From NCBI RefSeq assembly GCF_902833145.1, contig NZ_CADFEN010000001.1, positions 683,994 to 747,993 of the forward strand: DNA of 64,000 nucleotides, given 5' to 3'. Positions 901 through 55,093 of the stretch are shown here, piece by piece (within the stretch, counting starts at the first letter, position 1; each line of letters begins with the position of its first letter). The DNA is from Burkholderia sp. BCC0506 (GTDB taxonomy: Bacteria > Pseudomonadota > Gammaproteobacteria > Burkholderiales > Burkholderiaceae). The notes beneath the pieces are model-generated. The model did not search any database. It was given only the letters and a program-made list of their open reading frames with translations, and was not told the origin of the DNA. The translations under genes were made by a program, and so were the position numbers.

Positions 901-914
901 GCAAGCGCCATGCC
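901..914 (-). promoter_or_regulatory. Sigma-54 type -24/-12 promoter for sdhB
   Basis: On the minus strand the sequence reads CGGCATGGCGCTTGCG, with GG and GC exactly 10 bases apart and a good TTGC -12 element. The predicted transcript start near 889 leaves a leader of about 60 bases before the sdhB ATG at 830. It lies in the gap between sdhB and the next minus-strand gene. Confidence 0.6.
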
Positions 915-916
915 GG

Positions 917-1159
917 TCAGTCGTCGTCCACGCGCTTGTCGATCAGGTAGCGGCCGCGTTCGAGCCCTGCCCGCAACGCCTCGACCTCGGTCAGCCATTC
1001 GGGGCCGGCGGCCTCCGGAACAAACAATTCGATGCGCGCGCCGTTCACGTACACCTGCACCTCGTCGCGCCATGCGCCGCGCTCGTTGGGCCGCGCCCAC
1101 ACGAGAATCTCGTGGCCGCGATACGGGTCCCGAACCTGTGCGTCCTGTTGATGTGCCAC
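917..1159 (-). CDS. Small hypothetical protein (80 aa)
   Basis: I do not recognise a function. The protein is soluble, with a short polar N-terminus followed by a compact region containing YRGHEILVWARPNERGAW and VQVYVNGARIELFVPEA, which looks like a small beta-rich fold ending in a helix (GLERGRYLIDKR). I chose GTG at 1159 because AGGAGG sits 8 bases upstream; the longer open frame beginning at 1243 has no ribosome site and an atypical arginine-rich N-terminus. It lies divergent to the MgtC gene. No convincing -24/-12 promoter was found: the best candidate near 1191-1206 has the wrong spacing. Confidence 0.6.
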   Translation of the reverse strand: MAHQQDAQVRDPYRGHEILVWARPNERGAWRDEVQVYVNGARIELFVPEAAGPEWLTEVEALRAGLERGRYLIDKRVDDD

Positions 1160-1258
1160 GGTGGCCTCCTGTCTTATCTGCGATGGCGATGCAAAAAATG
1201 CGCGCCGCATGAGCGCCGCGCGCGCCGTCGGCCTCGCGCGCACGCGCCGTGCCCGGCC

Positions 1259-1272
1259 GGCACGCTGCTTGC
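1259..1272 (+). promoter_or_regulatory. Sigma-54 type -24/-12 promoter for the MgtC operon
   Basis: The sequence CGGCACGCTGCTTGCG matches the -24/-12 consensus at every strongly conserved position. The predicted start near 1284 is about 50 bases before the ATG at 1336. Confidence 0.75.
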
Positions 1273-1335
1273 GTCCCTTTTCCGCATCGAAGCACTAGCG
1301 GGCCCGCATCGCACCGGCCCGAAAGGATGCACATC

Positions 1336-4546: not shown

Positions 4547-5328
4547 GCAAGCACCCGGCCCCGCCGCCGCACGTCGTCACGGCCGACGCGGCGCCCGCCG
4601 CCGCGCCGGGCGGGCGCGACCTGCGGATCGCGACCTACAACATCCGCGGCGGCTACGGCGCGTGGCCGGCGCGCGCGGCCGACCGGATCGCGGCCGTGAT
4701 CGACGAACTCGACGCGGACGTAATCGCGCTGCAGGAAGTGCCGCTGGGCGGCACGCGTGCGCCCGACGTGCTCGCGCACCTGCGCGACGCAACCGGCATG
4801 CATGCGGTGGCCGGCCCGACGATCGACACGCCCGAGCGCCGCTACGGCAATGCGGTGCTGTCGCGCTGCCCGATCCGCGCGGCGCGTACGCTCGACCTGT
4901 CGTTCCACCCGCGCGAGCCGCGCGGCGCGCTCGACGCCGACATCGACTGCAGCGCGGGCCCGATCCGCGTGGTCGCGACGCATCTCGGGCTGTCGGCCAG
5001 CGAGCGCAGCGCGCAGGTGCAGCGGCTGCTCGCGGCATTCGACACCGGCACGATGCCGGTGATCCTGCTCGGCGACATCAACGAGTGGTTCGTGCGCGGC
5101 CGCGCGTTGCAGGCGCTCGTCACGCGATTCCGGCGCGCGCCGGCGCCGCGCACGTTCCCGACCGTGTGCCCGGTGTTCTCGCTGGACCGGATCTGGATCC
5201 ATCCGGGCGAGCTGCTGGTCGACGTGGTCGTGCACCGCAGCGCGCGGGCGCGGCACGCGTCGGACCACTATCCGCTCGTGGCCCGGATGCGCTCCACGCC
5301 CGCGACGGGCACGGCGCTTGCGCGGTGA
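4537..5328 (+). CDS. Endonuclease/exonuclease/phosphatase (EEP) family protein
   Basis: The 263-residue protein has the EEP fold motifs in order: ATYNIRGG, ALQEV (metal-binding Glu), ATHLG, GDINEW (catalytic Asp/Asn) and SDHYPL (catalytic Asp-His). No signal peptide is evident, but residues 1-27 are a proline/alanine-rich tail. The family hydrolyses phosphodiesters of nucleic acids, phosphoinositides or phospholipids. Pairing with a phospholipase-D protein recalls the E. coli ybhP-clsB arrangement, which supports a lipid role rather than DNA repair. ATG at 4537 overlaps the upstream gene. Confidence 0.85.
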   Translation: MALSKHPAPPPHVVTADAAPAAAPGGRDLRIATYNIRGGYGAWPARAADRIAAVIDELDADVIALQEVPLGGTRAPDVLAHLRDATGMHAVAGPTIDTPERRYGNAVLSRCPIRAARTLDLSFHPREPRGALDADIDCSAGPIRVVATHLGLSASERSAQVQRLLAAFDTGTMPVILLGDINEWFVRGRALQALVTRFRRAPAPRTFPTVCPVFSLDRIWIHPGELLVDVVVHRSARARHASDHYPLVARMRSTPATGTALAR

Positions 5329-5998: not shown

Positions 5999-8900
5999 AT
6001 GGATTCCACACCGCCGTTCGCTCCGCACGTCTACTTCTGCGACGCCCGCCTCGTCGGGCCGCTCGACGCATGGCCGCAGACCTTCGCGCACATCGCCGGG
6101 ATGGGCTTCGACCACGTGCTCGTCGGCGCGTTCTGGGCCGCGAGCGTCGCCGGCTTCCCGCGCCACGTGGCGGATTTCCGGCGGCCGGCCCAGTCGTTTG
6201 AGACGCGCGCGAGCGCGCTCGAAACCTTCTCGCGGCTCGCGCAACTGGCGAAGGGCCACGGGCTGCGCCTGCTGCTCGAAGTCGTGCCCGATCGCATCGC
6301 GCGCGAGAATCCGCTGCGCACCGAGCATCCGGACTGGTACGTCGAGCATCCGCACGACGACGCGCTGATCGACCCGCGCGGCACCGCGCACGCGCTGGAT
6401 ATCGCGCACGCGAACACCGGCGACGAAGCGGTGCGCGACGCGCTGTCGGCATGGTGGTGCGCGCATCTCGCGACGTTCGCCGACGCGGGCGCGGCCGGCT
6501 TCCTGATCGACGCGCCGCATCATCTGCCGGCCGACTGGTGGCCCGGCTGGCGCGCGGCGCTGCGCCGTGCGCGCCCGGACGTCGCGGCGCTCGCCGGCGT
6601 GCCCGGCCATGCGCGCGATGCACTCGCGCAATTGGAGGCCGCCGGGTTCGACGCGGTGTTTTCGTCGGTGCGCTGGTGGGACCTGCGCGCGCCGTGGTTC
6701 GCGGACGAGCACCGGCTGCTGCGGCGCATCGGCGCGCCGATCGCGTTTCCCGACGCGCCGGACGGCCCGCGCCTCGCCGACGACTGGCCCGACGCATCGG
6801 ACGACGCCGTCGCCCGCGCGTATCGCCGCGCACTGTGGACGGCCGCGGCCGTCGGCACCGGCTGGCTCGTGCCGATGGGCTTCGAGCGCGGCGTGACGGT
6901 GCCGCTGATGGCGCGCGACGCGGATGCCGCGCGCTACCGCGCCGCATTCGAGCAGGCCCGTTTCGACCTGTCGGGCGCGCTCGCCGATGCGAACGCGTGG
7001 CGACGCGCCACGCCGGTCGCGGCGGCGCGCGGCGAAATCGTGCAACTGAGCGCGCCGGGCGCGAGCGCGACCGCGTTGCTGCGCGGCACCGGGCTCTTGC
7101 TCGAACACGACGACGCCGCGTTGCTGATCGCATTGAATCCCGATCTCGACGCGCCGGCCACGCTCGACCCCGCGACGATCCTGCCCGGCGTGCCGGGCGG
7201 CTTCACGCGCGTGGTCACGCAGGACGGCGCGCACACGCATCCGCCGGCCGCGCTCGAGCCGTTCACGCTCGCGCCCGGTGCCTATGCGCTGCTGCATGCG
7301 TGGCGGGCGCCGCCCGTCACGTCGCGTCCCGACGCCGCGCGCGAGCGCACCGTGCTGTCGACGGCGCTCGCGGCCGACCGGATCGCGATCGAGCGCGTCG
7401 AGCCGTCGGTCGACGGCGGCCGCTTCGCGATCAAGCGCGTGATCGGCGAGCCGCTCGTCGTGAGTGCGTCGATCTTCACGGATGGCCACGCGCATCTGGC
7501 GGCCGTGCTCCAGTGGCGCGCCGCCGACGAAGACGCCTGGCGCGAAATCCCGTTCGACGCCGAGCCGAACGACCGCTGGCATGCGCGCGTCACGCTCGAC
7601 CGGCTCGGCCGTCACGAATTCCGCGTGGTCGCGTGGCGCGACGACTGGGCGTCGCTCGTCACCGACATCGCGAAGAAGCGCGCGGCCGGCCAGGATGTGG
7701 CGCTGGAGGTGCGCGAAGCGCAACTGCTGCTCGCGACCGCGCTGAAGCTCGCCGATCCGGCCGATCCGCGCGCGCTCGCGCGGATGGAACGGCTCGCCGC
7801 CGAGCTCAGGGACGCGTCGCCCGACGATCGCCTCGCGCTGATCGGCGCGCCCGCGCTCGCCGACGCGTACGCGGCGCTGCGCTACCGCCCGTTCGTCACG
7901 CACGACGCGACGACCTACCCGGTCGACGTCGAACGCCGCAAGGCGCGCTTCTCGAGCTGGTACGAGATGTTTCCGCGCTCGGCGAGCGACGATCCGCACC
8001 GGCACGGCACGTTCGACGACGTGATCGCGCATTTGCCGCGCATCCGCGACATGGGTTTCGACGTGCTGTATTTCCCGCCGATCCACCCGATCGGCATGTC
8101 CGCGCGCAAGGGCCGCAACAACAGCCTGACCGCGGGCCCCGACGACGTCGGCAGCCCGTATGCGATCGGCTCGCCCGACGGCGGGCACACGGCCGTGCAT
8201 CCGCAGCTCGGCACGCTCGAATCGTTTCGCGCGCTGGTCGAGGCCGCGCGCGGGCACGGGCTCGAGATCGCGCTCGATTTCGCGATCCAGTGCTCGCCCG
8301 ACCACCCGTGGCTCGCCGCGCATCCGGGCTGGTTCGCGTGGCGGCCCGACGGCTCGCTGCGTTTCGCGGAGAATCCGCCGAAGCGCTACCAGGACATCGT
8401 GAACCCCGATTTCTATGCGCCGGACGCGCTGCCCGGCCTGTGGCTCGCGCTGCGCGACGCGGTGCTGTTCTGGGTCGACGCGGGCGTGCGGATCTTCCGC
8501 GTCGACAACCCGCACACGAAGCCGCTGCCGTTCTGGGCATGGATGATCGACGACGTGCGCGGCCGGCATCCGGACGTCGTGTTCCTGTCCGAGGCATTCA
8601 CGCGCCCGGGGATGATGTACCGCCTCGCGAAAGTCGGCTTCTCGCAGTCGTACACGTACTTCACGTGGCGCGAGTCGAAGCGCGAGTTCATCGACTACCT
8701 GACCGAGCTGACGGCCGGCCCGCCGCGCGAATTCTTCCGGCCGAACTTCTTCGTCAACACGCCCGACATCAATCCGCGCCACCTGCAGAACGCGCCGCGT
8801 TCGCAGTTCGTGATCCGCGCGGCGCTCGCGGCGACGCTGGCCGGCTCGTGGGGCCTGTACTCGGGCTTCGAGCTCGGCGAATCGGCGCCGCTGCCGGACA

Positions 8901-9387
8901 GCGAGGAATACGCGGATGCCGAGAAATACGAGCTGCGCGCGCGCGACTGGAGCAAGGCCGCGCACATCGGCACGGAGATCGCGCGGCTGAACCGCGCGCG
9001 GCGCGATCACCCGGCGCTGCAGACGCATCTCGGGCTCACGTTCGTCGAGGCCGACAACGATTCGGTGCTCGTGTTCATGAAGGCGACGCCCGCGTTCGAC
9101 AGCGTGGTGGTGGTCGCGATCAGCCTCGATCCGTGGCATCCGCAGGCCGCGAACTTCACGCTCGATGCGGCGCTGTGGCGCGGCCTCGGGCTGGCCGACG
9201 GCGAACCGCTCGATGCGCTCGAACACGATGCCGCGCACGCGCAAGCCTGGCGCGGCCATCGCCAGTACGTGTCGCTCGATCCGCACGTGCGGCCGTACGC
9301 CATCTGGCGGCTCACGCCGTCTCCGGGCGCCGCGCGGGCGGCAGCGCCCGCACCGGACGACGCCCGACCTGTCTCGGGAGCCCACGG

Positions 9388-9391
<4 letters not shown>
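5999..9391 (+). CDS. glgE: Alpha-1,4-glucan:maltose-1-phosphate maltosyltransferase with extra N-terminal GH13-like domain
   Basis: GlgE extends linear alpha-1,4-glucan using maltose-1-phosphate. The conserved core spans about residues 460-1130: a DUF3416-type N-domain, then the GH13 catalytic barrel. [13 protein letters not shown] carries the predicted nucleophile Asp836, FLSEAFTRP the acid/base Glu865 and NTPDIN Asp923; the spacing is close to that of characterised Streptomyces GlgE. The protein is 1130 residues, far longer than the usual 650-700, because of an N-terminal extension of about 455 residues. That extension resembles a degenerate alpha-amylase barrel ([22 protein letters not shown]). 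No clear Shine-Dalgarno precedes ATG 5999. The stop overlaps treS (ATGA). It is the first gene of the storage operon. Confidence 0.93.
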
Positions 9392-15008
<5,617 letters not shown>

Positions 15009-15045
15009 TTGCCCACGCCCTGCCCTCGACACGGAGACCCGCCCC

Positions 15046-17175
15046 ATGCCGACCGCCCTGCCCGACCGTCTCGAACCCGGCCGCAGCTATCCGCTCGGCG
15101 CGACCTGGGACGGCCTCGGGACCAACTTCGCGGTATTTTCCGCGCACGCGCAGCGCATCCAGCTGTGCGTGTTCGATCCGACCGGCCGCAAGGAACTCGC
15201 GCGCCTCGACCTGCCCGAATGCACCGACGAGGTGTGGCACGGCTACCTGCCGAACGCGCATCCGGGCACCGTGTACGGGTTTCGCGCGGACGGCCCGTAC
15301 CAGCCGCAGCACGGCCATCGCTTCAATCCGACCAAGCTGCTGCTCGACCCGTACGCGCGCAAGCTGGTCGGCCAGTTCCGCTGGTCCGACGCGCTGTTCG
15401 GCTATCGCGTGCATTCGAACCGGGCCGACCTGTCGATGGACCGCCGCGATTCGGCGCCCGCGATGCCGAAAGCCGTGGTCGTCGACGAAGCGTTCGACTG
15501 GAGCAACGACCGCCGCCCGAACGTGCCGTGGCGCAGCACCGTGATCTACGAAACCCACGTGCGCGGCGCGTCGATGCGCCGCGCCGGGCTGCGCCCACCG
15601 GAGCGCGGCACGTTCGCGTCGCTCGCGCATCCGGCGTTCGTCGATCACCTGCTGTCGATCGGCGTGACGACGGTCGAGCTGCTGCCGATCCATGCGTTCC
15701 TGCAGCAGCGCGAACTCGTGAAACGCGGGCTGCGCAACTACTGGGGCTACGACACGGCCGCGTTCTTCGCGCCGGAACCGTCGTATCTGACGACGCGGCG
15801 GCTCGACGAAATGCGCATCGCGGTGCGCCAGCTGCATGCGGCCGGCATCGAGGTCGTGCTCGACGTGGTCTACAACCACACGTGCGAAGGCAACCAGCTC
15901 GGGCCCACGCTGTCGTGGCGCGGCCTCGACAACGCGAGCTACTACCGGCTGCTGCCCGACGACCCGCGTTACCACGTCGACGAAACCGGCTGCGGCAACA
16001 CGCTGAACATGTCGCATCCGCGCGTCGTGCAGATGGTGATGGATTCGCTGCGCTACTGGGCCACCGCGTTCAACATCGACGGCTTCCGCTTCGATCTCGG
16101 CGTGACGCTCGGCCGCGAGGATCACGGCTTCGAGCCCGGTGCGGGGTTCTTCGACGCGTTGCGGCAGGACCCGGTGCTCGCGCAGCGCAAGCTGATCACC
16201 GAGCCGTGGGATCTCGGCCCCGGCGGCTATCAGCTCGGCCGCCATCCGCCCGGCTTCGCCGAATGGAACGACCGGTTTCGCGACACCGTGCGGCGCTTCT
16301 GGCGCGGCGACGCGGGCCAGCGGCCGGAGCTGGCCGCGCGCCTGTCGGGCTCGGCCGACCTGTTCAACCACGGCCGGCGCCGCACGTGGGCATCGGTCAA
16401 TTTCGTCACCGCGCACGACGGCTTCACGCTGGCCGACCTCGTGTCGTATGCGGGCAAGCACAACGACGCGAACGGCGAGGACAACCGCGACGGCCGCGAC
16501 GACAACTGCAGCGCGAACTGGGGCGTCGAAGGCGCGACCGACGACGCGGCGATTCGCGACGTGCGCGCGCGCGTCGCCCGCTCGATGCTCGCGACGCTGT
16601 TCACCGCGCTCGGCACGCCGATGCTCGTGGCCGGCGACGAATTCTGCCGCACGCAGCAGGGCAACAACAACGCGTATTGCCAGGATAACGAACTATCGTG
16701 GCTCGACTGGGATCTGGCCGGCAGCGAGGAAGGCGTGCAGATGACCCGTTTCGTGTCGCGGCTCGCCGCGCTGCGGCGCATGTATCCGGTGATGTCGGCG
16801 CCGCGCTACCCGTCGGGCGACCGCGACGGCGCGCCGGGCATGCGCGAGATCGAGTGGTTCGACGAACGCGGCGACGCGCTCAGCGTGCCCGCGTGGGAAG
16901 ACGGCGAACGCCGCGCGCTGACGATGCGGCGCGTCGGCACCGGCCGCACCGGCCGCACCGAGGCGTTGCTCGTGATGCTGAACGCGTCGGCCGGCACGAT
17001 CAGGTTCAAGCCGCCCGCGCCCGTGCTCGATTACCGGATCCTGCTCGACACCGCGACACCCGACGCCGGCCCGCGCTCGTGGCCGGAAGCCGGTCTCGAC
17101 GTCGCCGCGCATGCGGCCGCGATCGCGGTCGCGGCCGTGCCGCCGCCCGATCAGTCTTCCGGAGGACCGCCATGA
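15046..17175 (+). CDS. glgX: Glycogen debranching enzyme GlgX
   Basis: GlgX hydrolyses alpha-1,6 linkages of branched glucan, releasing linear chains. The 709-residue protein has an N-terminal CBM48-like module (GTNFAVFSAHAQRIQLCVFD) and a GH13 isoamylase-type barrel with GFRFDLGVTLGREDHGF (Asp350), LITEPWDLGPGGYQLG (Glu386) and the GlgX hallmark QGNNNAYCQDNELSWLDW. ATG 15046 is preceded by CACGGAGA. The stop overlaps treZ (ATGA). Since TreY acts on linear chains, debranching here feeds trehalose formation. Confidence 0.95.
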   Translation: MPTALPDRLEPGRSYPLGATWDGLGTNFAVFSAHAQRIQLCVFDPTGRKELARLDLPECTDEVWHGYLPNAHPGTVYGFRADGPYQPQHGHRFNPTKLLLDPYARKLVGQFRWSDALFGYRVHSNRADLSMDRRDSAPAMPKAVVVDEAFDWSNDRRPNVPWRSTVIYETHVRGASMRRAGLRPPERGTFASLAHPAFVDHLLSIGVTTVELLPIHAFLQQRELVKRGLRNYWGYDTAAFFAPEPSYLTTRRLDEMRIAVRQLHAAGIEVVLDVVYNHTCEGNQLGPTLSWRGLDNASYYRLLPDDPRYHVDETGCGNTLNMSHPRVVQMVMDSLRYWATAFNIDGFRFDLGVTLGREDHGFEPGAGFFDALRQDPVLAQRKLITEPWDLGPGGYQLGRHPPGFAEWNDRFRDTVRRFWRGDAGQRPELAARLSGSADLFNHGRRRTWASVNFVTAHDGFTLADLVSYAGKHNDANGEDNRDGRDDNCSANWGVEGATDDAAIRDVRARVARSMLATLFTALGTPMLVAGDEFCRTQQGNNNAYCQDNELSWLDWDLAGSEEGVQMTRFVSRLAALRRMYPVMSAPRYPSGDRDGAPGMREIEWFDERGDALSVPAWEDGERRALTMRRVGTGRTGRTEALLVMLNASAGTIRFKPPAPVLDYRILLDTATPDAGPRSWPEAGLDVAAHAAAIAVAAVPPPDQSSGGPP

Positions 17176-19043
17176 CTTCCCGTTCCGCCCGCCCCACCGG
17201 CACGCATGCATTCGAATCGTCGTTCGGCGCGACCTGCGTCGATGCCGACCACACGCGCTTCCGGCTGTGGGCGCCCGCGTGCCGCACCGCCGCCGTCGAG
17301 CTGCAGGACGAAGGCGGTCGCGCGACGCCGATGACGCCGGCCGGCGACGGCTGGTTCGAGACGGTCGCGCCGTGCGGCGCCGGCACGCTGTACCGCTACG
17401 TGCTCGACGGCACGCTTGCGGTGCCCGATCCCGCGTCGCGCTTCCAGCCGTACGACGTGCACGGCCCGAGCCAGGTCGTCGATCCCGGCGCGTACCGCTG
17501 GCGCCACGACACGTGGCGCGGCCGCCCGTGGCACGAGACGGTGCTGTACGAACTGCACGTCGGCGCCTGCGGCGGCTACGCGGCCGTCGAGCGGCGGCTG
17601 CCGGCGATCGCCGAACTCGGCGTGACCGCCGTCGAGCTGATGCCCGTCAACGCATTCCCCGGCGCGCGCAACTGGGGCTACGACGGCGTGCTGCCGTTCG
17701 CGCCCGATGCGTCGTACGGGCGGCCCGAGGAACTGAAATCGCTGGTCGACACCGCGCACGGGCTCGGGCTGCAGGTGTTCCTCGACGTCGTGTACAACCA
17801 CTTCGGCCCCGACGGCAACCTGCTGCCGCGCTACGCGCCCGGATTCTTCCGCGCGGACCGGCAGACCGCGTGGGGGCCGGCGATCGACTTCTCCCGCCCG
17901 CAGACGAGCGCGTTCTTCCTCGACAACGCGCTGTACTGGCTCGACGAATACCGTTTCGACGGGCTGCGCATCGACGCCGCGCACGCGATCGACGACGACG
18001 CGTGGCTGCGCGCGCTCGCACGCCGCGTGCGGGCATACGCGGGCGACGCGCGCCACGTGCATCTCGTGCTGGAAAACGAGCGCAATACCGCGAGCCTGCT
18101 CGGCCCCGGCGGCTTCGACGCGCAATGGAACGACGACTTCCACAACAGCGCGCACGTGCTGCTGACCGGCGAGCGCGACGGCTACTACCGCGCGTACGCC
18201 GATGCGCCGCTGCGCCATTTCGCGCGCACGCTCGGCGAAGGCTTCGCGTACCAGGGCGAACCGTCGCCGCTGCACGACGGCGCGCCACGCGGCGAGCCGA
18301 GCGCGCACCTGCCGCCGAGCGCGTTCGTCGTGTTCCTGCAGAACCACGACCAGATCGGCAACCGCGCGTTCGGCGAGCGGCTGCGCGCGCTCGCGAACGA
18401 CGACGCGGTGCGCGCGGCCACCGCGCTGATGCTGCTCGCGCCGTCGATCCCGCTGCTGTTCATGGGCGAGGAAGACGGCAGCACGCAGCCGTTCCAGTTC
18501 TTCACCGACTATCGCGGCGCGCTCGCCGACGCGGTGCGCGAAGGCCGGCGCCGCGAGTTCGCCGCGTTTCCCGCGTTCGCCGACGCCACGCATCGCGACG
18601 CGATTCCCGACCCGAACGAGATCGCGACCTTCGTGCGCTCGTCGTCGCACCATCCGCCCGACGAGTCGTGGCCCGACGCGGCCGCCTGGCGGCGCTTCTA
18701 CCGCAGCGCGCTGGCCGTGCGCGCGGCGCTCGTGACGCCACACCTGGCCGGCGCACGCGCGCTCGGCGTCGACCTGCTCGCGGGCGACGGCGATCCGCCG
18801 GCACTGGTCGCGCGCTGGCGCCTCGGCGACGGCAGCACGCTGACGATCGCGCTGAATCTCGGCTCGCACGACGCGACGCTGCCCGCGCTGCCGGCCGGCA
18901 AGATCGTGTTCGAGACGCCGCCGCGAGCGCGCGACCGGCTGCCCGGCGGGCACGTGCCGCCGCGTGCGTGCATCGCGTGGCGCGACGGCGCGGTCAACCA
19001 GGATGCGCGGCATCACCGCGCGAACGGACGGAGCAACGGATGA
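17172..19043 (+). CDS. treZ: Malto-oligosyltrehalose trehalohydrolase
   Basis: TreZ releases free trehalose from maltooligosyl-trehalose made by TreY. The 623-residue protein has an N-terminal sandwich (TRFRLWAPACRTAAVEL) and a GH13 barrel with GYDGVLPFAPDASYGRPEEL, DVVYNHFGPDGN, GLRIDAAHAI (Asp268), LVLENERNTA (Glu301) and the family-specific FLQNHDQIGNRAFGER. Start ATG 17172 overlaps the glgX stop after CCGGAGGA. The stop overlaps malQ. The enzyme is separated from its partner treY by malQ. Confidence 0.95.
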   Translation: MTSRSARPTGTHAFESSFGATCVDADHTRFRLWAPACRTAAVELQDEGGRATPMTPAGDGWFETVAPCGAGTLYRYVLDGTLAVPDPASRFQPYDVHGPSQVVDPGAYRWRHDTWRGRPWHETVLYELHVGACGGYAAVERRLPAIAELGVTAVELMPVNAFPGARNWGYDGVLPFAPDASYGRPEELKSLVDTAHGLGLQVFLDVVYNHFGPDGNLLPRYAPGFFRADRQTAWGPAIDFSRPQTSAFFLDNALYWLDEYRFDGLRIDAAHAIDDDAWLRALARRVRAYAGDARHVHLVLENERNTASLLGPGGFDAQWNDDFHNSAHVLLTGERDGYYRAYADAPLRHFARTLGEGFAYQGEPSPLHDGAPRGEPSAHLPPSAFVVFLQNHDQIGNRAFGERLRALANDDAVRAATALMLLAPSIPLLFMGEEDGSTQPFQFFTDYRGALADAVREGRRREFAAFPAFADATHRDAIPDPNEIATFVRSSSHHPPDESWPDAAAWRRFYRSALAVRAALVTPHLAGARALGVDLLAGDGDPPALVARWRLGDGSTLTIALNLGSHDATLPALPAGKIVFETPPRARDRLPGGHVPPRACIAWRDGAVNQDARHHRANGRSNG

Positions 19044-33089: not shown

Positions 33090-33128
33090 CGCGTCACCTC
33101 GTCGGAATCGGAATCGACGCCATCGACG

Positions 33129-34139: not shown

Positions 34140-34208
34140 GCTGTTCCTCCTTGCCGGGTGCGCGCCCGCCCGCCGGCAGGCGCGCCGTACCGCGAGCCGC
34201 TGTCGGCC

Positions 34209-36314: not shown

Positions 36315-36429
36315 CGTCAGGTGTCCTCGTGGCATTCGGTAGGGAACCGCCGCCGCGCGGCGCCGGCGCGCGTGCGGACGGCAGGGAGAGCCGGCCCGCC
36401 GCGCGACGCGTGCGCGGGCCGGTGCGGCA

Positions 36430-36816
36430 TCAGGGCGCGCGCAGCGCCGCGTCGAATTCGGCGGCCGTCACGTCGAGCGCCACGTTGCATTCGATCGCGG
36501 CGTCCTCGACGCGCGGCTTGTGCTCGTCCACCGCGCGCCGCGCGCGGTCGCACAGCTGCGTGCGCACGCGCAGCCGGTCGGCCGTGTCCAGCATCGCGTA
36601 GCGTTCGATCACGTCCGCGTCGAACCGCATGTCGACCGAGCAGCGCCATTGGCGCGCGTCCTCGTCGGACGGCACGCGCACCCACGTCACGTTGATCGTC
36701 AGCCGCCCGGACGCGTCGTCCGCATGCACGACGACGGTCGACTGCGACGGAAAACCGATCGCGAGCGCGTGCTCGAGTTCCGCGACGCGCTGCGCCCGGT
36801 CGGGCGTGGCCGTCAT
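36430..36816 (-). CDS. Small hypothetical protein (DUF3022-like, 128 aa)
   Basis: The soluble 128-residue protein contains [41 protein letters not shown] and [18 protein letters not shown], followed by a helical tail. It seems to belong to a small Burkholderia family (DUF3022 is my tentative name) with no known function. It shares the ERYAxLD...RxRV motif with the 121-aa protein at 27493. ATG 36816 overlaps the stop of the DUF1328 gene (ATGA). Confidence 0.6.
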
Positions 36817-36974
36817 CGGCGCACGACCCCCAGCAACAGCGTGACCAGGAAGATCACGACGAAGATGTAGAACAGGATCTTCGCGATCTCGGCCGCGCCG
36901 GCGGCGATGCCGCCGAACCCGAACACGGCCGCGATGATCGCGATGATGAAGAAGATGATGGCGTATCGAAGCAT
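36813..36974 (-). CDS. DUF1328 small membrane protein
   Basis: The 53-residue protein is nearly all membrane: [39 protein letters not shown], two segments separated by [14 protein letters not shown]. It matches the DUF1328/YtjA family in length and sequence. Members are stress-induced in many Gram-negatives but have no defined role. ATG 36974 follows CCAGGAGGG; the longer frame to 37028 is arginine-rich. Its stop overlaps the next gene. Confidence 0.85.
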
Positions 36975-37020: not shown

Positions 37021-37209
37021 TCACGCATCGTGCTTGTGTTTCGGTTTGCCGCGCGTGGGCGTGGAAGCCATTTTCTCGAGCTCTTTCTCGCTCATCGACT
37101 TGGCCATCGATTTCGACGGCGGTTTGAGATCCTTCATTTTCGTGTCGCCGCGCTTGGCCGATAGCGCGGCCCCGGCGGCGCGCTGCTGGGCCTGGGATTT
37201 GGCTGGCAT
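37021..37209 (-). CDS. DUF3008 family small basic protein
   Basis: The 62-residue protein begins [20 protein letters not shown] and continues with [17 protein letters not shown] and a Lys/His tail, the DUF3008 pattern. It is small, basic, cytoplasmic and of unknown function. ATG 37209 follows AGAGGAGCG. It lies 73 bases after rpoN and 46 before the DUF1328 gene, consistent with one transcript. Confidence 0.75.
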
Positions 37210-37282: not shown

Positions 37283-38716
37283 TCACGCGGCGTCGCGGCG
37301 CCGCAGGTCGGCCGGCGGAATCTTCATCGCCTGGCGATACTTCGTCACCGTGCGACGCGCAAGAAGGATGCCGCGGCCCGCGAGGTTTTCCGCGAGCGCG
37401 ACGTCGGACAGCGGATCGGTATGGCGCTCGGCCGCGATCATGTCGCGGATCAGCACCTTCGCGGCCGAGGCCGAACACACGCCCTTGCCGGCCGCCTCGA
37501 GCTTGCGCGGGAAGAAATGCTTGAATTCGAACGTGCCGTGCGGCGTGGCCATGTACTTGTTGCCGGTCGCGCGCGATACCGTCGATTCGTGCAGGTCGAG
37601 CTCTTCCGCGATGTCGCGCAGCACCAGCGGCTTCATCGCGATCTCGCCGTAGCGGAAGAAATCGCGCTGCCGCGCGACGATGCATTCGCCCACGCGCTGA
37701 ATCGTGTCGAAACGCTTCTGCACGTTGCGGATCAGCCAGCGCGCTTCCTGCAGTTGCTGGCCGAGCGGCGAGTCGCGCTCGCCGCTCGACTGCGCGAACA
37801 GGGTCGCATAGCGCTCATGCAGCCGCGCGCGCGGCAGCACGGCCGGATTGATCGTCACGATCCATTCGTCGCGCACCTGGCGCACGATCACGTCGGGCAC
37901 CACGTAGTCGCCGCGCGTGCTGCCGTAGTGATTGCCGGGGCGCGGGTCCAGCCCGCGCACGAGGGCGCAGGCGGCCTGCAGCGTCTGCTGGTTGCAGCCG
38001 AGGCGCCGCTGGATCTCGGCCGTCTCGCGGCGCGCGAGCCGCTCCAGATGCTCGCGCGCGATCGCCTTCGCTTCCGCGAGCGCCGGCGTGCCGGCCGGAA
38101 TCGCATCGAGCTGCAATACGAGACATTCGGACAACGAACGGGCGGCGATGCCCGGCCGGTCGAGCATCTGCACGAGCCGCAGCGCGACCGCGAGATCCTG
38201 CTCCGACAGCAGCCATGCCGGATCGGCGGCGACCAGCAATTCGGGAAGCGCCTGACGCAGGTAGCCGTCGTCGTCCAGCGCGTCGATCACGAGACGCGCG
38301 GCTTCGCGATCGCGCTTGTTGAGCGGATAGAGCCGCAGCGCATCGTGCAGTTGCTGATGCAGCGACGGCTCGGCGGCGATCCATTCGCCGGGCGACAGAC
38401 CATCGGTGTCGTCGCCCTGGCGGCTCGTGCCGCGCGGCGCGGGGGCCGCGGTAAATGGCACCTCGCCATCCGGCGGACGGATGTCGTCGTGCTCGGACGC
38501 CGCTTCCGGCGCGGCCGCTTCGGTCGGCTGCTCGGGCGTGGCGGCGACGGATTCCTCGTCGCCCTGGCCGTCTTCGAGAAACGGGTTCATGTCGAGCGCC
38601 TGACGCAATTCCTGTTGAAACTCGAGCGAGGACAACTGCAGCAGCCGCAGCGACTGCTGAAGCCTCGGCGTAAGTGCGAGATGCTGTCGCATCTGCAGCG
38701 CAAGCGAGACGGGCAT
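37283..38716 (-). CDS. rpoN: RNA polymerase sigma-54 factor (paralogue)
   Basis: The 477-residue protein has all sigma-54 regions. Region I is glutamine/leucine-rich (MRQHLALTPRLQQSLRLLQL, then MNPFLE) and contacts activators. A short acidic region II follows (about 45-95), then the core-binding and helix-turn-helix parts (ESTVSRATGNKYM). The RpoN box is ARRTVTKYR near residue 460. Betaproteobacteria usually have a housekeeping rpoN near lptB and ptsN; none of those genes are here, so this is likely a second, dedicated copy. ATG 38716 follows GTCAGGAGGC. A -24/-12 promoter precedes it, implying that a sigma-54 drives its own gene. Downstream genes may be in its operon down to ligD. Confidence 0.93.
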   Translation of the reverse strand: MPVSLALQMRQHLALTPRLQQSLRLLQLSSLEFQQELRQALDMNPFLEDGQGDEESVAATPEQPTEAAAPEAASEHDDIRPPDGEVPFTAAPAPRGTSRQGDDTDGLSPGEWIAAEPSLHQQLHDALRLYPLNKRDREAARLVIDALDDDGYLRQALPELLVAADPAWLLSEQDLAVALRLVQMLDRPGIAARSLSECLVLQLDAIPAGTPALAEAKAIAREHLERLARRETAEIQRRLGCNQQTLQAACALVRGLDPRPGNHYGSTRGDYVVPDVIVRQVRDEWIVTINPAVLPRARLHERYATLFAQSSGERDSPLGQQLQEARWLIRNVQKRFDTIQRVGECIVARQRDFFRYGEIAMKPLVLRDIAEELDLHESTVSRATGNKYMATPHGTFEFKHFFPRKLEAAGKGVCSASAAKVLIRDMIAAERHTDPLSDVALAENLAGRGILLARRTVTKYRQAMKIPPADLRRRDAA

Positions 38717-38775: not shown

Positions 38776-38789
38776 GCAGCTTCCGTGCC
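38776..38789 (-). promoter_or_regulatory. Sigma-54 type promoter for the rpoN paralogue
   Basis: The minus strand reads TGGCACGGAAGCTGCG: full TGGCACG -24 and CTGC at -12. The predicted start near 38764 is 48 bases before ATG 38716. A T-run followed by TTACAAGG near 38860-38876 lies about 70 bases further upstream. Confidence 0.6.
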
Positions 38790-40525: not shown

Positions 40526-40539
40526 GCAAACCGCGTGCC
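40526..40539 (-). promoter_or_regulatory. Sigma-54 type promoter for the 40464-38945 operon
   Basis: The minus strand reads CGGCACGCGGTTTGCG, a perfect match. The predicted start is near 40514, 50 bases before ATG 40464. Confidence 0.75.
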
Positions 40540-41048: not shown

Positions 41049-41062
41049 GCAAGTCGCGTGCC
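41049..41062 (-). promoter_or_regulatory. Sigma-54 type promoter for the 100-aa gene
   Basis: The minus strand reads CGGCACGCGACTTGCC. The predicted start is near 41037. Its -24 lies only 15 bases from the -24 of the divergent promoter at 41077. Confidence 0.7.
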
Positions 41063-41076
41063 GTGCGGGCGAACCG

Positions 41077-41090
41077 GGCACGCCGGTTGC
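41077..41090 (+). promoter_or_regulatory. Sigma-54 type promoter for the 84-aa hydrophilic gene
   Basis: GGGCACGCCGGTTGCG is a perfect GGCACG/TTGC pair. The predicted start near 41102 is 28 bases before ATG 41130. Confidence 0.75.
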
Positions 41091-41404: not shown

Positions 41405-41418
41405 GGCATGCGCTTTGC
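41405..41418 (+). promoter_or_regulatory. Sigma-54 type promoter for the CBS gene
   Basis: CGGCATGCGCTTTGCT has the consensus spacing and a perfect -12. The predicted start near 41430 is 46 bases before ATG 41476. Confidence 0.7.
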
Positions 41419-42596: not shown

Positions 42597-43076
42597 TTAC
42601 AAGGGTCGTGTAACCTCCCCGTCCGGCTTCACGGCGCCGCCGCTGGCCGATTCGAGGTAGCCCAGCAGCCGGTGCGGTGTCAGCGGTTTCACGCAATGCG
42701 CGTCGAAGCCGGCCTCCTTCGCCCGCTCGCAATCCCGCCGCGACACGAGCCCGCTGCATGCGATCAGCAGCATGTCCGACGTTTTCGGATCGCCGCGCAG
42801 CCGCGCGGCGAGCTGCAACCCGTCGAGGCCCGGCATCGCGATGTCGAGCACCACCGCGAACGGCTGCCAGTCGCGCGCGACGTCGCACACCGCGAACGGA
42901 TCGTCGGCGACCCGGCACTCGAAGCCGCGCGCCTCGAGCAGCAGGCGCAGCGCATCGGCCGCATCGCGATAGTCGTCGACGACCAGCACGCGGCGCGGGC
43001 GGCGCGGCACGCTGTCGGGTGCGCGCCACAACAGCACGTCGTCGGCGGCCGGATCGTCGCCGGAGTCGGGTTGCAT
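42597..43076 (-). CDS. Single-domain response regulator (CheY-like)
   Basis: The 159-residue protein is a receiver domain with a 25-residue N-terminal tail and a short C-terminal tail. It has RRVLVVDDYRDAADAL, the phosphoacceptor Asp78 in VVLDIAMPGLDG, and Lys in CVKPLTPHRLL. No output domain is present, so it works by protein contact or as a phosphate sink. ATG 43076 follows ACAGGAGAAGCACG. It is divergent to udgX from overlapping promoters. The hybrid kinase at 52719 is a possible partner, but only by proximity. Confidence 0.85.
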   Translation of the reverse strand: MQPDSGDDPAADDVLLWRAPDSVPRRPRRVLVVDDYRDAADALRLLLEARGFECRVADDPFAVCDVARDWQPFAVVLDIAMPGLDGLQLAARLRGDPKTSDMLLIACSGLVSRRDCERAKEAGFDAHCVKPLTPHRLLGYLESASGGAVKPDGEVTRPL

Positions 43077-43133: not shown

Positions 43134-43147
43134 GCATGCGGCATGCC
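43134..43147 (-). promoter_or_regulatory. Sigma-54 type promoter for the response regulator, overlapping the udgX promoter
   Basis: The minus strand reads CGGCATGCCGCATGCA: good -24, with ATGC at -12. The predicted start is near 43122, 46 bases before ATG 43076. The -24 uses the palindrome GGCATGCC that also serves the opposite promoter. Confidence 0.45.
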
Positions 43148-43153
43148 GGTTGC
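43140..43153 (+). promoter_or_regulatory. Sigma-54 type promoter for the udgX operon
   Basis: CGGCATGCCGGTTGCT has a perfect -12 and consensus spacing. The predicted start near 43165 is 23 bases before ATG 43188. Confidence 0.7.
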
Positions 43154-47578: not shown

Positions 47579-47592
47579 GCAAGCGGCATGCC
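47579..47592 (-). promoter_or_regulatory. Sigma-54 type promoter for the SDR-DUF4142 unit
   Basis: The minus strand reads CGGCATGCCGCTTGCG. The predicted start is near 47567, 23 bases before ATG 47544. Further upstream, 47630-47655 has TTTTCAGGGG and GTTGCAAGCG, a loose echo of the candidate activator dyads. Confidence 0.7.
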
Positions 47593-50133: not shown

Positions 50134-50147
50134 GCAAATCGCGTGCC
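50134..50147 (-). promoter_or_regulatory. Sigma-54 type promoter for the BON operon
   Basis: The minus strand reads CGGCACGCGATTTGCG, identical over 16 bases to the promoter at 28516. The predicted start near 50122 is 41 bases before ATG 50081. Confidence 0.75.
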
Positions 50148-50256: not shown

Positions 50257-50270
50257 GGCATGCCGATTGC
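50257..50270 (+). promoter_or_regulatory. Sigma-54 type promoter for the GT4 gene
   Basis: GGGCATGCCGATTGCC has consensus spacing and TTGC. The predicted start near 50282 is 44 bases before ATG 50326. The -24 lies in the palindrome GGCATGCC; read on the other strand it also gives GGCATG with CTGC at 50251. Confidence 0.65.
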
Positions 50271-51645: not shown

Positions 51646-52691
51646 TGAAGGGCTACGATCGAAAACGCGTCCTCGTCACCGGCGGCGCCGGCTTCCTCGG
51701 TTCGCATCTGTGCGAACGGCTCGTGACGGCCGGCCACGACGTGCTGTGCGTCGACAATTTCTACACGGGCACGAAGGACAACATCGCGCACCTGCTCGAT
51801 GCGCCGAACTTCGAGCTGATGCGGCACGACGTGACGTTTCCGCTCTACGTCGAAGTCGACGAGATCTACAACCTCGCGTGCCCGGCATCGCCTGTTCACT
51901 ACCAGCGCGACCCCGTGCAGACGACGAAGACGAGCGTGCACGGCGCGATCAACCTGCTCGGCCTCGCGAAACGCGTGAAGGCGCGCATCCTGCAGGCATC
52001 GACGAGCGAGGTGTACGGCGACCCCGACGTCCATCCGCAGGACGAGCACTATTGCGGCCGCGTCAATCCGACCGGCATCCGCGCATGCTACGACGAAGGC
52101 AAGCGCTGCGCGGAAACGCTGTTCGCGGACTATCACCGCCAGTACGGCGTCGACGTGCGGATCGCGCGGATCTTCAATACGTACGGCCCGCGCATGCATC
52201 CGGCCGACGGGCGCGTCGTGTCGAACTTCGTCACGCAGGCGCTCGCGGAACAGCCGTTGACCGTCTACGGCGACGGCAAGCAGACGCGCTCGTTCTGCTA
52301 CGTGGACGACATGGTCGATGCGTTGATCCGGCTGATGGACGAACCGGGCGACGCGAGCGAGCCGGTCAATCTCGGCAGCGACGTCGAGATCGCGATGATC
52401 GACGTCGCGCGCGAGGTCGTGCGGATCGTCGGCGCGACCGTGCCGATCGAATTCCGGCCGCTGCCGGCCGACGATCCGCGCCAGCGGCGGCCGAATCTCG
52501 CCGCCGCGCAGAAGCGGCTCGGCTGGCGCGCGACGACGACCTTCGCGAACGGCCTCGCGCATACCGCGCGGTACTTCATTCAACGCCAGGTCACGCACCA
52601 CGCGCCCGGCGACCTCGTGCGCAGCACGCGAATCGCGTCGCATCTGCTCGCGCAGGTCCATACGCAGAACCGGCCGGCGCCGACCACCTGA
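51645..52691 (+). CDS. NAD-dependent sugar-nucleotide epimerase/decarboxylase (UDP-glucuronate decarboxylase type)
   Basis: The 348-residue extended SDR has [18 protein letters not shown], the active-site triad in STSEVYGDP and [10 protein letters not shown] (Tyr-x-x-x-Lys), and [21 protein letters not shown]. These motifs match UDP-xylose synthases, which decarboxylate UDP-glucuronate; a dTDP-glucose dehydratase is less likely. The C-terminal 30 residues are an unusual extra tail. It is translationally coupled to the GT4 gene (TAATG), and so may supply its donor sugar. Confidence 0.85.
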
Positions 52692-52718
52692 CGCGGCCGC
52701 TACGCGGCGCGCGGCGCA

Positions 52719-55025
52719 TCAGCCGTCGCGCTTCGTCACGTGCGCGATCTTGTGCGCCAGTTCGCGCACGTCGACCGGCTTGCACAGGTAGCCGTCGAAG
52801 CCGGCTTCCAGCGCGCGGCGTTCGTCGGCGAGGCCCGCGTGCGCGGTGACGGCCAGCACGCGTATGTCGAGCGGGCCGCCGTCGCCGTTCGGCGCGCCGC
52901 GCCGCAACGCGGCCAGCAGCCAGAAACCGTCGCCATCGGGCATCGCGAGATCGGACAGCACGACCGTCGGCCGCATGTCGGCCACCATCGCGAGCGCCTC
53001 GCGGCCCGACGACGCGATCGCGACGGCCGCGCCGAACGTGGTGAGCGCGGCCGTGAGGCTCGCGCGCGTGGTCGCGTCGTCGTCGACGATCAGGATGCGC
53101 TGCGTATCGAGCACGAGCGGCTCGCGGCGGCCGCTCGCGTGCAGGAGGCTCCACGCCATCGCGCCGCCCGGCTGCCACCCGGCCGGCAGCGTCACCGTGA
53201 ATGTCGTCCCGCGATCGCGGCCCGCGCTCGCGACGCTCACGCGGCCGCCGTGCAGCTCCGCGATGTGCCGCACGATCGACAGGCCCAGACCGAGGCCGCG
53301 CCGCGGCGACGCGGGCGAATCGTCGGCACGGCGGAACATGTCGAACACGTACGGCGCGAACTCCGTCGCGATGCCCTGCCCCGTATCGGACACGCTCAGC
53401 ACCGCGTGCGTGTCGTCGCGCGCGAGGCCGACCGTCACGCTGCCGCCGCCCGGCGTGAATTTCAGCGCATTCGAGATGAGGTTCGACAGCATCTGCCGCA
53501 ACCGCTCGGCATCGCCCGACACGATGCACGCGGACACGTCGCAGTCGAATTCGAGCATGATGCCGGCGGACGACGCGGCCGTCTGGAACGTGCCGACCAC
53601 GTCGGAGAACAGCCGCACGACGTCGACCGGCGTCGCGTCGAGCCGCAGCTTGCCGGTCGCGAGCGACGACGCATCGAGGATGTCGCCCACCATCCGCGTG
53701 AGCGAGCGCGCGCTGCGGTCGATCGCGTCGATCGCCTGATGCTGCAACGCCTGCTCGCCCGAGTTGCGCAGCACCTCGATCCACCCGTAGATCACGTTCA
53801 GCGGCGTGCGCAATTCGTGCGACACCGTGGCCAGCAGTTCGTCCTTCATCCGGTTCGACGTATCGGCCTGGTCGAGCGCGTTGCGCGCGCCTTGCAGCGA
53901 GCGCTGCGCACGCAGGTCGCGGCGGCGCTGCGCACCGGTTTCGCGCAGCGTCAGCGACAGCGCGACGCTGGCGCGCGCGTCGCCCTGCACCGGGCACGCG
54001 GACACCGTCGCCCGAAAACGCCGGCCGTCGCGCCGCACGCACAGCAGTTCGAGCGGCCCGACCGGCTCGCCCATCGCGTCGACTGCGTCGGCGAGCGGGT
54101 TGAGCCGAAGCCAGCGGCGCGCGATCAGCGTGTCGAACCGGCGGCCGCACGCGTCGGCCTCGTCGTAGCCGAAGATCCGCTGCGCAGCCGGATTCCAGCT
54201 CGCGATCCGGCCATCGCCATCGATCCCGACGATGGCGTCCGGCGACGCCTCGACGACCGCCTGCTGGCGCCGCGACGCATCGACGCGCGCGCGGTCCGCG
54301 CCGGCATCGCGCAGCAGCAGCACCGCGCCGTCGAGGTTGCCGTCGGCATCGCCGATCGGCGACGCGACCGCGACGATCGGCACCCGATCGCCGTCGCCGG
54401 CCTGCAGCCAGTGCCGGTCGGACGTCGCCTCGGCGCCGCCCAGCGCATGATCGAGCGGCGTGGTCGGCACGCGGCGGCCTTCGCGATCGACGATCCGCAC
54501 GACGTCGCGCACCGGCCGCCCGATTGCCTCGTCCGGCCGGCAGCCGACGAGTGCGGCCGCGGCCGCGTTGAGATAGGTGAGCCGACCGTTCGGGTCGGTC
54601 GCGATCACGCCGTGCGGCAGCGCGCGCAGCACGGCTTCGAGCTGCCGGCGCGCGGCCGTCTCGCGTCGGCGCGCGCGATCGTTCGCGACGCGCGTGCGAT
54701 GCAGCATCGACGCGACCGCGCACACCAGCGCGCCGATCAGCATGAACGTGCCGAGCTGCACGAGCCGTTCGGGCAACGGCGCCGGATAGGCCGCCGGATC
54801 GGACAGGAACAGCGTCCAGACGAGCAGCCCGCTGACCACCGTCGACACGATGCCGAACAGGAACGACGTCGCCCACGCGGCGCCGGCGAGCAGCGGGTAA
54901 TACAGCACGAACGGCAGATTCACGCCGCCGAAGCGGATCGCGAGCGTCTGCAGCACGGTCGCGATCGCGACCAGCATCACGGCCGTTGCGTAATTTCCGG
55001 CCTGCGGCCGTGCAATTTCGGTCAT
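52719..55025 (-). CDS. Hybrid sensor histidine kinase with membrane domain and PAS domains
   Basis: The 768-residue protein has four predicted membrane segments at residues about 10-125 (KdpD/DUF4118-like), two PAS domains (about 150-270 and 285-400), a HisKA domain with SHELRTPLN (His403), an HATPase domain (NLISNALKFTPGG, SDTGQGI, GLGLGLSIVRHIAELHGG) and a receiver with the phosphoacceptor Asp in VVLSDLAMPDGDG. There is no Hpt domain. ATG 55025 follows GCAGGAGCTTCTCCC. It converges with the UDP-glucuronate decarboxylase gene. The NtrC-type regulator at 56766 is a plausible partner by proximity only. Confidence 0.9.
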   Translation of the reverse strand: MTEIARPQAGNYATAVMLVAIATVLQTLAIRFGGVNLPFVLYYPLLAGAAWATSFLFGIVSTVVSGLLVWTLFLSDPAAYPAPLPERLVQLGTFMLIGALVCAVASMLHRTRVANDRARRRETAARRQLEAVLRALPHGVIATDPNGRLTYLNAAAAALVGCRPDEAIGRPVRDVVRIVDREGRRVPTTPLDHALGGAEATSDRHWLQAGDGDRVPIVAVASPIGDADGNLDGAVLLLRDAGADRARVDASRRQQAVVEASPDAIVGIDGDGRIASWNPAAQRIFGYDEADACGRRFDTLIARRWLRLNPLADAVDAMGEPVGPLELLCVRRDGRRFRATVSACPVQGDARASVALSLTLRETGAQRRRDLRAQRSLQGARNALDQADTSNRMKDELLATVSHELRTPLNVIYGWIEVLRNSGEQALQHQAIDAIDRSARSLTRMVGDILDASSLATGKLRLDATPVDVVRLFSDVVGTFQTAASSAGIMLEFDCDVSACIVSGDAERLRQMLSNLISNALKFTPGGGSVTVGLARDDTHAVLSVSDTGQGIATEFAPYVFDMFRRADDSPASPRRGLGLGLSIVRHIAELHGGRVSVASAGRDRGTTFTVTLPAGWQPGGAMAWSLLHASGRREPLVLDTQRILIVDDDATTRASLTAALTTFGAAVAIASSGREALAMVADMRPTVVLSDLAMPDGDGFWLLAALRRGAPNGDGGPLDIRVLAVTAHAGLADERRALEAGFDGYLCKPVDVRELAHKIAHVTKRDG

Positions 55026-55079
55026 GGGAGAAGCTCCTGCGGGGACAGTCGATGCCGGCCTGCGTGGCTGCCGCCGGCG

Positions 55080-55093
55080 GGCACGGTGCATGC
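55080..55093 (+). promoter_or_regulatory. Possible sigma-54 type promoter for the deacetylase operon
   Basis: GGGCACGGTGCATGCT has a perfect GGCACG -24 and ATGC at -12. The predicted start near 55105 is 40 bases before ATG 55145. Confidence 0.5.

Follow-up and report, generated by a model that had tools for sequence, protein, structure and literature searches.

Why does one stretch of Burkholderia DNA carry promoter motifs of the sigma-54 type ahead of so many of its genes, and which sigma-54 would use them? The stretch, 64,000 bases of Burkholderia sp. BCC0506 (positions 683,994 to 747,993 of contig NZ_CADFEN010000001.1, which is 927 kb long; this whole stretch is called the window below), encodes a second sigma-54, RpoN2, and an NtrC-type activator. 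Most of what is known about sigma-54 concerns nitrogen, flagella, and envelope genes, and the gene families of the block are usually targets of RpoS or EcfG. We propose, with a probability of about 0.68, that the block is a dedicated RpoN2/NtrC-type sigma-54 regulon for stress and trehalose genes that is conserved and is not a genomic island.

The window holds 15 exact copies of GGCAYG-N4-TTGC; 100 shuffles that preserve dinucleotides gave 0.52 on average and never more than 3. A first-pass annotation of this DNA had estimated about 0.4 chance matches, which agrees with the shuffle mean, and every one of the 13 positions it listed is an exact match. The two sites absent from its list are the one at 1681, within the MgtC gene, and the one at 5308, which overlaps the end of the gene that precedes 5360. 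With revised gene starts 13 of the 15 sites are intergenic; the first gene calls gave 12, because the site at 47579 fell in a longer start of its own gene. Twelve of the 13 stand 34 to 89 bases ahead of a start codon, close to the 23 to 78 bases given earlier, and only the site at 43140, 156 bases ahead of the UdgX start used here, departs from that range. Eighty rpoN2 loci (1.62 Mb in total) contain 239 exact sites, whereas four re-spaced patterns occur 13, 26, 14, and 17 times in them and the reversed pattern 6 times; the GG and GC have the fixed -24/-12 spacing of sigma-54 promoters, and re-spaced patterns drop to background. In 25 Burkholderia rpoN2 loci, 111 of 115 exact sites are intergenic (the share in the other loci, 123/124, was not used, since genes in them were overlooked by the codon model). 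A GC-rich sequence with a favored word might produce such sites by chance, and the local G+C content of about 70 to 72% is above that of most flanks. Yet the shuffles, the control patterns, the intergenic and oriented positions of the sites, and the comparison of unit heads given below rule out this origin, which we regard as having virtually no probability.

The whole genome contains 95 exact sites and 46 matches to the reversed pattern; therefore, many sites elsewhere are background or belong to other sigma-54 genes. The concentration that the first-pass annotation had suggested looking for is there: 23 of the 95 sites fall within 127 kb around the window (C1:635-762 kb) of a 7.29-Mb genome (binomial P of about 7e−20, for an interval picked post hoc). 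We defined a unit head as a gene with a divergent neighbor or a gap of at least 50 bases and searched for sites within 220 bases. Between 800 and 55160, 21 of 29 heads have a site with at most one mismatch (13 exact and 8 with one mismatch, one of which, before 37209, relies on a site inside rpoN2), against 7/35 on the left side, 5/12 on the right side, and 4/60 in the farther flanks. The reversed pattern is found at 2/29 heads in this part of the window and at 3/60 farther out. Seven of the eight heads without a site follow a same-strand neighbor by 59 to 115 bases and may be operon internal; the eighth is the gene of a hybrid kinase. The claim that nearly all transcription units have sigma-54 sites thus holds for the majority, though “nearly all” is somewhat strong. 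Transcription presumably starts at these sites, which are listed here with the genes behind them. Row counts refer to the Burkholderia loci in which the N terminus of the gene was found (4 to 26 of 26 rows, window included).

901..914, minus strand: exact C-class site before the SdhB/FrdB-like gene at 123-830
1259..1272, plus strand: exact C-class site before the MgtC-family gene at 1336-2031
5308..5321, plus strand: exact site before the NinX-like gene at 5360-5848; at most one mismatch also in loci L178, L179, and L180
5941..5954, plus strand: exact site before glgE and the trehalose/glucan run
5999..24030, plus strand: genes for GlgE, TreS-maltokinase, GlgB, a GlgX-like protein, alpha-amylase/DUF3459 (TreZ-like), GH77, and alpha-amylase (TreY-like), enzyme names being inferred from domains and gene order
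24515..24528, plus strand: one-mismatch site before the phosphatidylserine decarboxylase gene at 24565-25815
26183..26196, minus strand: one-mismatch T-class site T-GGCACGATCCCTGC before the small gene at 25837-26091, the sole T-class head at 901-55093 other than rpoN2
27308..27321, minus strand: one-mismatch site before the DJ-1/PfpI gene at 26703-27251; exact in 7/8 rows, the window being the one-mismatch row
28479..28492, minus strand: site before the gene at 27944-28423, exact in 5/5 rows
28516..28529, plus strand: divergent site before the DUF3175 gene at 28583-28939, exact in 13/14 rows
40526..40539, minus strand: site before the gene at 40192-40464, exact in 4/4 rows
41049..41062, minus strand: site before the gene at 40657-40959, exact in 13/13 rows
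41077..41090, plus strand: divergent site, 14 bases off, before the gene at 41130-41384; exact in 8/14 rows and one mismatch in 6/14
41405..41418, plus strand: site before the CBS-domain gene at 41476-41907; exact in 11/15 rows, one mismatch in 2/15, more than one in 2/15
42597..43076, minus strand: stand-alone receiver protein, its one-mismatch sites being at 43110 and 43134; 7/8 rows have a site with at most one mismatch
43140..43153, plus strand: site before the UDG-superfamily (UdgX) and Nramp genes, exact in 8/8 rows
47579..47592, minus strand: site before the SDR gene at 46687-47544, exact in 5/5 rows
50134..50147, minus strand: site before the BON gene at 49686-50081; at most one mismatch in the 17/17 rows with BON (20 Burkholderia loci and the window searched)
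50257..50270, plus strand: site before the GT4 and NDP-sugar epimerase genes; 12/13 rows exact, 1/13 with one mismatch (RpoN2-bearing Burkholderia with GT4 found, window included)
55080..55093, plus strand: one-mismatch site before the PIG-L gene at 55145-55840; one mismatch in 13/13 RpoN2-bearing Burkholderia rows with the gene

In the Burkholderia orthologue rows the first genes of units retain their site across species and most inner genes do not. Ku, KatE, DUF1328, DUF892b, and DUF4142 have no site with at most one mismatch in these rows, and a minority of inner genes have exact sites (DUF3022a in 3/15 rows, the gene at 39521 in 3/14). The gene glgE is present in 5 of 12 other genomes tried; an exact site lies within 151 bases of it in L178, L180, and L182, none was found in L179, and in L183 (genome G171) an exact T-type site stands 394 bases ahead. 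In Caballeronia and in genera g13, g20, and g25, a trehalose-6-phosphate synthase gene (identified by Pfam in two loci and by tblastn in the rest) adjoins the regulator gene and has a sigma-54 site in 29 of 30 loci. Different trehalose pathways, the GlgE run or the synthase, therefore stand behind the same promoter type, depending on the genus. Two back-to-back pairs of sites, at 28479-28529 and 41049-41090, are only 23 and 14 bases apart, so that the upstream activator site of one promoter would lie inside the transcribed region of the other.

The second sigma-54, its probable partners, and the genes behind it are the following.

37283..38716, minus strand: rpoN2, 477 amino acids, with Pfam AID, CBD, and DBD (all three sigma-54 domains)
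38776..38789, minus strand: T-class -24/-12 site T-GGCACGGAAGCTGC, one mismatch, 59 bases ahead of rpoN2; T before the GG in 80/80 homologous loci
37021..37209, minus strand: small DUF3008 gene between rpoN2 and DUF1328
30309..36974, minus strand: genes for LigD, Ku, catalase HPII (KatE), DUF3022, and DUF1328, which lack a clear site of their own and probably continue the rpoN2 operon
52719..55025, minus strand: hybrid histidine kinase (DUF4118, two PAS, HisKA, HATPase, REC), the probable sensor, found close to the regulator in six genomes belonging to genus g11
56766..58133, minus strand: NtrC-type response regulator and sigma-54 activator (REC, AAA+, HTH_8; GSFTGA loop), the probable RpoN2 partner
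58338..59516, plus strand: second sigma-54 activator, without a receiver domain, with a GSFTGA loop

RpoN2 scores 826.9 bits in NCBIfam NF009118 (cutoff, 396), and its helix-turn-helix aligns with that of RpoN1; with the three domains, this helix-turn-helix, and an RpoN box, it has the parts of a sigma-54. The sigma-54 DNA-binding domain is matched twice in the genome, on contig C6 and in the window. RpoN2 of the window shares 97% identity with the copies on chromosome 3 of B. anthina AZ-4-2-10-S1-D7 and Burkholderia sp. MS389, and the replicon of the block is the counterpart of Burkholderia chromosome 3. The frame is intact in 147 of 150 genomes among the matches listed and carries one stop in the other three. 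On the same strand the genes run rpoN2, DUF3008, DUF1328, DUF3022, katE (HPII), ku, and ligD, and they probably form one operon behind the rpoN2 promoter, whose site has one mismatch in 26/26 Burkholderia rows. A hairpin-like repeat after rpoN2, spotted by eye, makes a single rpoN2 operon less certain. Upstream of rpoN2 lies TTGTAAAAAAG at 38859-38869; a core, TGTAAAAA, which is also retained upstream of rpoN2 in Caballeronia loci, is a candidate only, with no demonstrated function.

Could the sites be real and yet matter little, with RpoS- or sigma-70-type promoters carrying most of the transcription and sigma-54 giving a minor input? The gene families, as targets usually of RpoS or EcfG, would suit such an arrangement, as would the lack of a site ahead of katE, ku, and ligD. 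Statements about cited work refer here and below to the available parts of each paper; in B. pseudomallei, katE has been reported under both RpoN2 and RpoS (PMC4745423). The sites are nonetheless precisely conserved over many species, mostly 30 to 90 bases before first genes, and we consider a minor role for them unlikely, though by no means negligible.

Is RpoN2 tied to a particular activator? Both activators read GSFTGA at the GAFTGA-type loop of the AAA+ domain, as expected of enhancer-binding proteins. The regulator reaches 389 bits against the TIGR01818 NtrC equivalog, below the cutoff of 558.6, and is therefore NtrC type rather than NtrC itself. In a genus sample of 41 genomes (40 and our own), an RpoN2 orthologue occurs in 36 and RpoN1-level matches only in 5; an orthologue of the regulator (at least 80% identity) is present in 36/36 RpoN2-bearing and 0/5 RpoN2-lacking genomes, the latter having only distant matches. 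Outside the genus both proteins occur in 100 genomes among the matches listed, and in seven other genera the two genes are on one contig, with starts 3.2 to 9.9 kb apart, in 63 of 65 genomes among the matches listed. In Caballeronia the regulator lies within 10 kb of rpoN2 in 20/20 loci. This paralogous RpoN is thus genetically tied to one activator. The kinase, the regulator, and the receiver-less activator have no site with two or fewer mismatches within 300 bases upstream, which fits an always-ready system. The first-pass annotation referred to “each rpoN copy” but made no use of the rpoN2, the two activators, and the kinase of the window itself. Motif statistics, conservation, position, and linkage to rpoN2 and a probable activator give strong support to its proposal of a sigma-54 stress regulon, and its wider idea of a rewired general-stress response is plausible because RpoS or EcfG usually controls genes of these families. 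What the sequence itself shows is the sites, with their position, conservation, clustering, and linkage to rpoN2 and the regulator.

The base before the -24 GG offers a clue to how the two sigma-54 factors might be told apart. A T stands at this position (-26) in the best rpoN2-promoter site of 80/80 loci and in 21 of 224 other exact sites (9/115 in Burkholderia, 4/68 in Caballeronia, and 8/41 in the rest, mostly Paraburkholderia). The rpoN2 sites, chosen by fewest mismatches and then nearness to the gene within 230 bases, comprise 15 exact, 61 one-mismatch, and 4 two-mismatch sites, so that the 80/80 includes mismatched sites and the comparison sites are all exact; P values on this base also overstate independence, because the loci are related. 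With a longer search window the T is found in 24/26 Burkholderia rows, because a different site was picked in two of them. Counted as promoter families in Burkholderia, there is one T family (rpoN2), and 0 of 12 target families have a T majority. In our own genome T occurs in 0/21 cluster promoters against 13/37 others (P = 0.002; the comparison took 21 of the 23 cluster sites and, of the 72 outside sites, the 37 that are intergenic with a gene within 300 bases). The mean number of C-GGCAYG sites in a genome is 49.9 when RpoN2 is present and 26.8 when it is absent (36 and 5 genomes; P = 0.0005; reversed background, 18.1 and 14.0), whereas for T-GGCAYG sites the means are 19.8 and 21.0 (P = 0.76; reversed background, 7.8 and 4.4). 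Eight genes with T-type sites elsewhere in the genome, some of them cut by the locus end, were compared with NCBIfam; six have a named best match, all under curated cutoffs (PII protein, NarK-type transporter, acetaldehyde dehydrogenase, PQQ alcohol dehydrogenase, GbdR-like regulator, and citrate symporter), and by these matches they are nitrogen and carbon genes. At the GT4 promoter, positions -26 and -11 read T and A in 6/6 g11 genomes and G and C in 13/13 RpoN2-bearing Burkholderia, at nearly equal distance. The RpoN box reads ARRTVTKYRQ in RpoN2 of the window and ARRTVAKYREA in RpoN1 of the genome, and in 79 RpoN2 boxes (24 Burkholderia, 20 Caballeronia, and 35 others) Q, H, or R replaces the E of RpoN1 in all, making this replacement a candidate for a specificity change.

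No strict rule follows from this base. A T requirement for RpoN1 fails in the six g11 genomes whose matches are all at RpoN1 level, where the PIG-L promoter lacks T in 6/6 and the TPP-enzyme promoter has C in 6/6, and in our own genome, where T is found in 16 of 72 exact outside sites (all 16 intergenic) and 36 of 52 intergenic sites lack it. A ban on T within the cluster fails at the site before 25837-26091 and at the glgE site of G171 (L183). The -11 base is not a consistent discriminator across genera: it is G or T in most sites of Burkholderia loci and A in 25 of 29 otsA sites and varies by gene and genus. The site at 26183-26196 shares the CTGC -12 box of the rpoN2 promoter; the gene behind it has no Pfam family and could be under the same sigma-54 as rpoN2.

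Several observations weigh against a dedicated RpoN2 regulon. In genus g20, rpoN2 and the regulator are linked in 0 of 35 genomes among the matches listed. Many g3 and several g11 genomes whose sigma-54 matches are all at RpoN1 level carry relatives of the regulator (best E-values, 1e−135 to 1e−212), and the regulator can therefore work with RpoN1. The five RpoN2-lacking genomes of the genus also lack glgE and a close PfpI orthologue, so their fewer sites may just mirror absent genes; since glgE is absent from 2/7 and a close PfpI orthologue from 4/8 RpoN2-bearing genomes tried, neither target is obligatory. A/G-GGCAYG sites, too, are somewhat more numerous with RpoN2 (22.4 against 15.6; P = 0.012; reversed background, 16.4 and 11.2). 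Clear sigma-54 sites of their own are lacking for katE, ku, and ligD in the Burkholderia orthologue rows. Dyad and word searches upstream of 21 promoters and across promoter families gave nothing convincing in common as an activator binding site. In the available text of a biofilm transcription-start map of B. cenocepacia J2315, the term sigma 54 does not appear (PMC4603805; the presence of RpoN2 in J2315 was not checked). Finally, rpoN2 of B. pseudomallei restored amino acid use to an E. coli rpoN mutant (PMC4745423); RpoN2 is therefore not blind to ordinary sites, which counts against strict separation of the paralogues.

This last result would also fit a sigma-54-dependent regulon served mainly by the housekeeping RpoN1, with specificity coming from the regulator alone and RpoN2 redundant or autoregulating. 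Six g11 genomes with only RpoN1-level matches indeed carry the regulator, the kinase, and a glycosyltransferase block with sigma-54 sites. We nevertheless think it quite improbable that RpoN1 does most of the work: RpoN2 is retained with the open frame reported above, it co-occurs perfectly with the regulator in the genus, C-class sites track it and T-class sites do not, and katE expression is lost in the B. pseudomallei rpoN2 mutant (PMC4745423).

How, then, would a regulon dedicated to RpoN2 work? The sites would be read by RpoN2, not by RpoN1. A signal probably passes from the membrane hybrid kinase (52719-55025) to the NtrC-type regulator (56766-58133), which the receiver-less activator (58338-59516) may assist, and the two would drive RpoN2-polymerase at the GGCAYG-N4-TTGC promoters of operons that provide trehalose/glucan synthesis, enzymes for redox reactions and DNA repair, small stress proteins, and envelope sugars. 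The trigger is most likely osmotic, drying, or starvation stress. The rpoN2 gene itself appears to lie behind a sigma-54 promoter that differs slightly in type from the others, so either RpoN1 or RpoN2 itself probably starts RpoN2 synthesis. The T in its own promoter, which is new here, suggests a cascade from RpoN1 to RpoN2, in which RpoN1 would read the T-GGCAYG rpoN2 promoter and RpoN2, having lost the Glu of the box, would prefer a non-T base at -26 and, with the regulator, drive the stress/trehalose regulon across Burkholderia and related genera. We hold this cascade tentatively and with more doubt than belief, given the exceptions among T and non-T sites and the A/G result.

The block does not look like the genomic island that had been proposed. 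RpoN2 is found in 36 of 41 genus genomes rather than in a patchy distribution, no integrase is among the 58 window proteins in the Pfam scan (one TnpB-like fragment is), and the one tRNA called by ARAGORN, at 21817-21907, lies inside a coding gene and is doubtful. The fragment is a partial TnpB/OrfB-like gene (61669-62310, 213 amino acids) among glycosyltransferase genes.

Some further features of the region can be recorded. In the BON/GT4 divergent spacer, a conserved CAACGCGTTGTAATTTTT at 50200-50218 is a possible activator site common to both genes, and the spacer also holds the palindrome CAACGCGTTG, a candidate only, with no demonstrated function. The gene at 5360-5848, downstream of a conserved sigma-54 site, encodes a protein like NinX of phage P22. 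In the GlgE-like protein (5999-9391, 1,130 amino acids) the GlgE domains start at residue 461, and the first 460 residues have no Pfam match at an E-value of 0.001. Outside the window, a TPP-dependent enzyme gene (L115:10543-12378) has an exact site; in genus g11 a TPP enzyme gene with such a site adjoins the hybrid kinase. To the right of the window (L117:7617-9027), a second BON protein and a 120-amino-acid protein are each encoded behind an exact site.

If our proposal is true, part of the stress defense in these bacteria is run by a dedicated second sigma-54, and a stress/trehalose regulon with its own sigma-54 and activator widens the role of this factor. Genomes with and without rpoN2 form a natural comparison for what makes sigma-54 paralogues differ, and the -26 base and the altered RpoN-box residue are concrete candidates for paralogue specificity. 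The determinants of this specificity have been called unknown (PMC7280030). The consensus GGcacg-N4-ttGC was described in work on NtrC of B. cenocepacia H111, in whose available text the terms pC3, catalase, and trehalose do not occur (PMC5491218). For B. cenocepacia J2315, the available parts of two papers have nothing on a second RpoN (PMC4603805, PMC2830190), and one names a single rpoN (PMC2830190); work on rpoN1 and rpoN2 of B. gladioli has been cited (PMC10269826). In stationary B. thailandensis there was no clear rise of RpoS, and RpoN was named among the candidates (PMC12322963). Our literature search, mostly without subscription papers, found no description of a stress/trehalose regulon of Burkholderia RpoN2 beyond PMC4745423.

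How does this system compare with known ones? KatE, BON, DUF892, PRC-barrel, and trehalose enzymes are likewise targets of the general stress response under RpoS or EcfG; these are sigma-70-family factors that, unlike sigma-54, need no ATPase activator. The closest case is B. pseudomallei, which also has a second rpoN on its secondary chromosome and a KatE catalase linked to RpoN2. Control of katE by RpoN2 has already been shown there: in late stationary phase the katE transcript was absent from the rpoN2 mutant at 48 to 72 h, complementation restored KatE activity, and an RpoN box was predicted before katE (PMC4745423). In the window, by contrast, katE lacks a clear site and is probably transcribed as part of the rpoN2 operon, and the available part of that study covers katE, amino acid use, and a partial proteome, with no activator, regulon, promoter class, or gene cluster (PMC4745423). 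Two sigma-54 variants have been noted in some Burkholderiales, and paralogue differences at -11 or -12 in other groups (PMC3162934). RpoN1 to RpoN4 of Cereibacter (Rhodobacter) sphaeroides resemble the present case as paralogues with dedicated RpoN-activator pairs and small promoter differences, but there the regulons are nif, flagella, and xrpA and the difference is at -11, whereas here they are stress and trehalose genes and the base before the -24 GG (PMC11999139, PMC3162934). Xanthomonas campestris also divides labor between RpoN1 and RpoN2, but in flagellar and fatty acid roles, and no stress gene cluster is described in the available text (PMC7280030). In the RpoN-RpoS cascade of Borrelia, sigma-54 likewise heads a sigma cascade, whose second step is the sigma-70-family factor RpoS and not, as it would be here, a second sigma-54 (PMC6719511). 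A dedicated sigma-54 paralogue with its own activator is thus a system of a known kind, and a stress regulon under such a pair would be a new variant of it.

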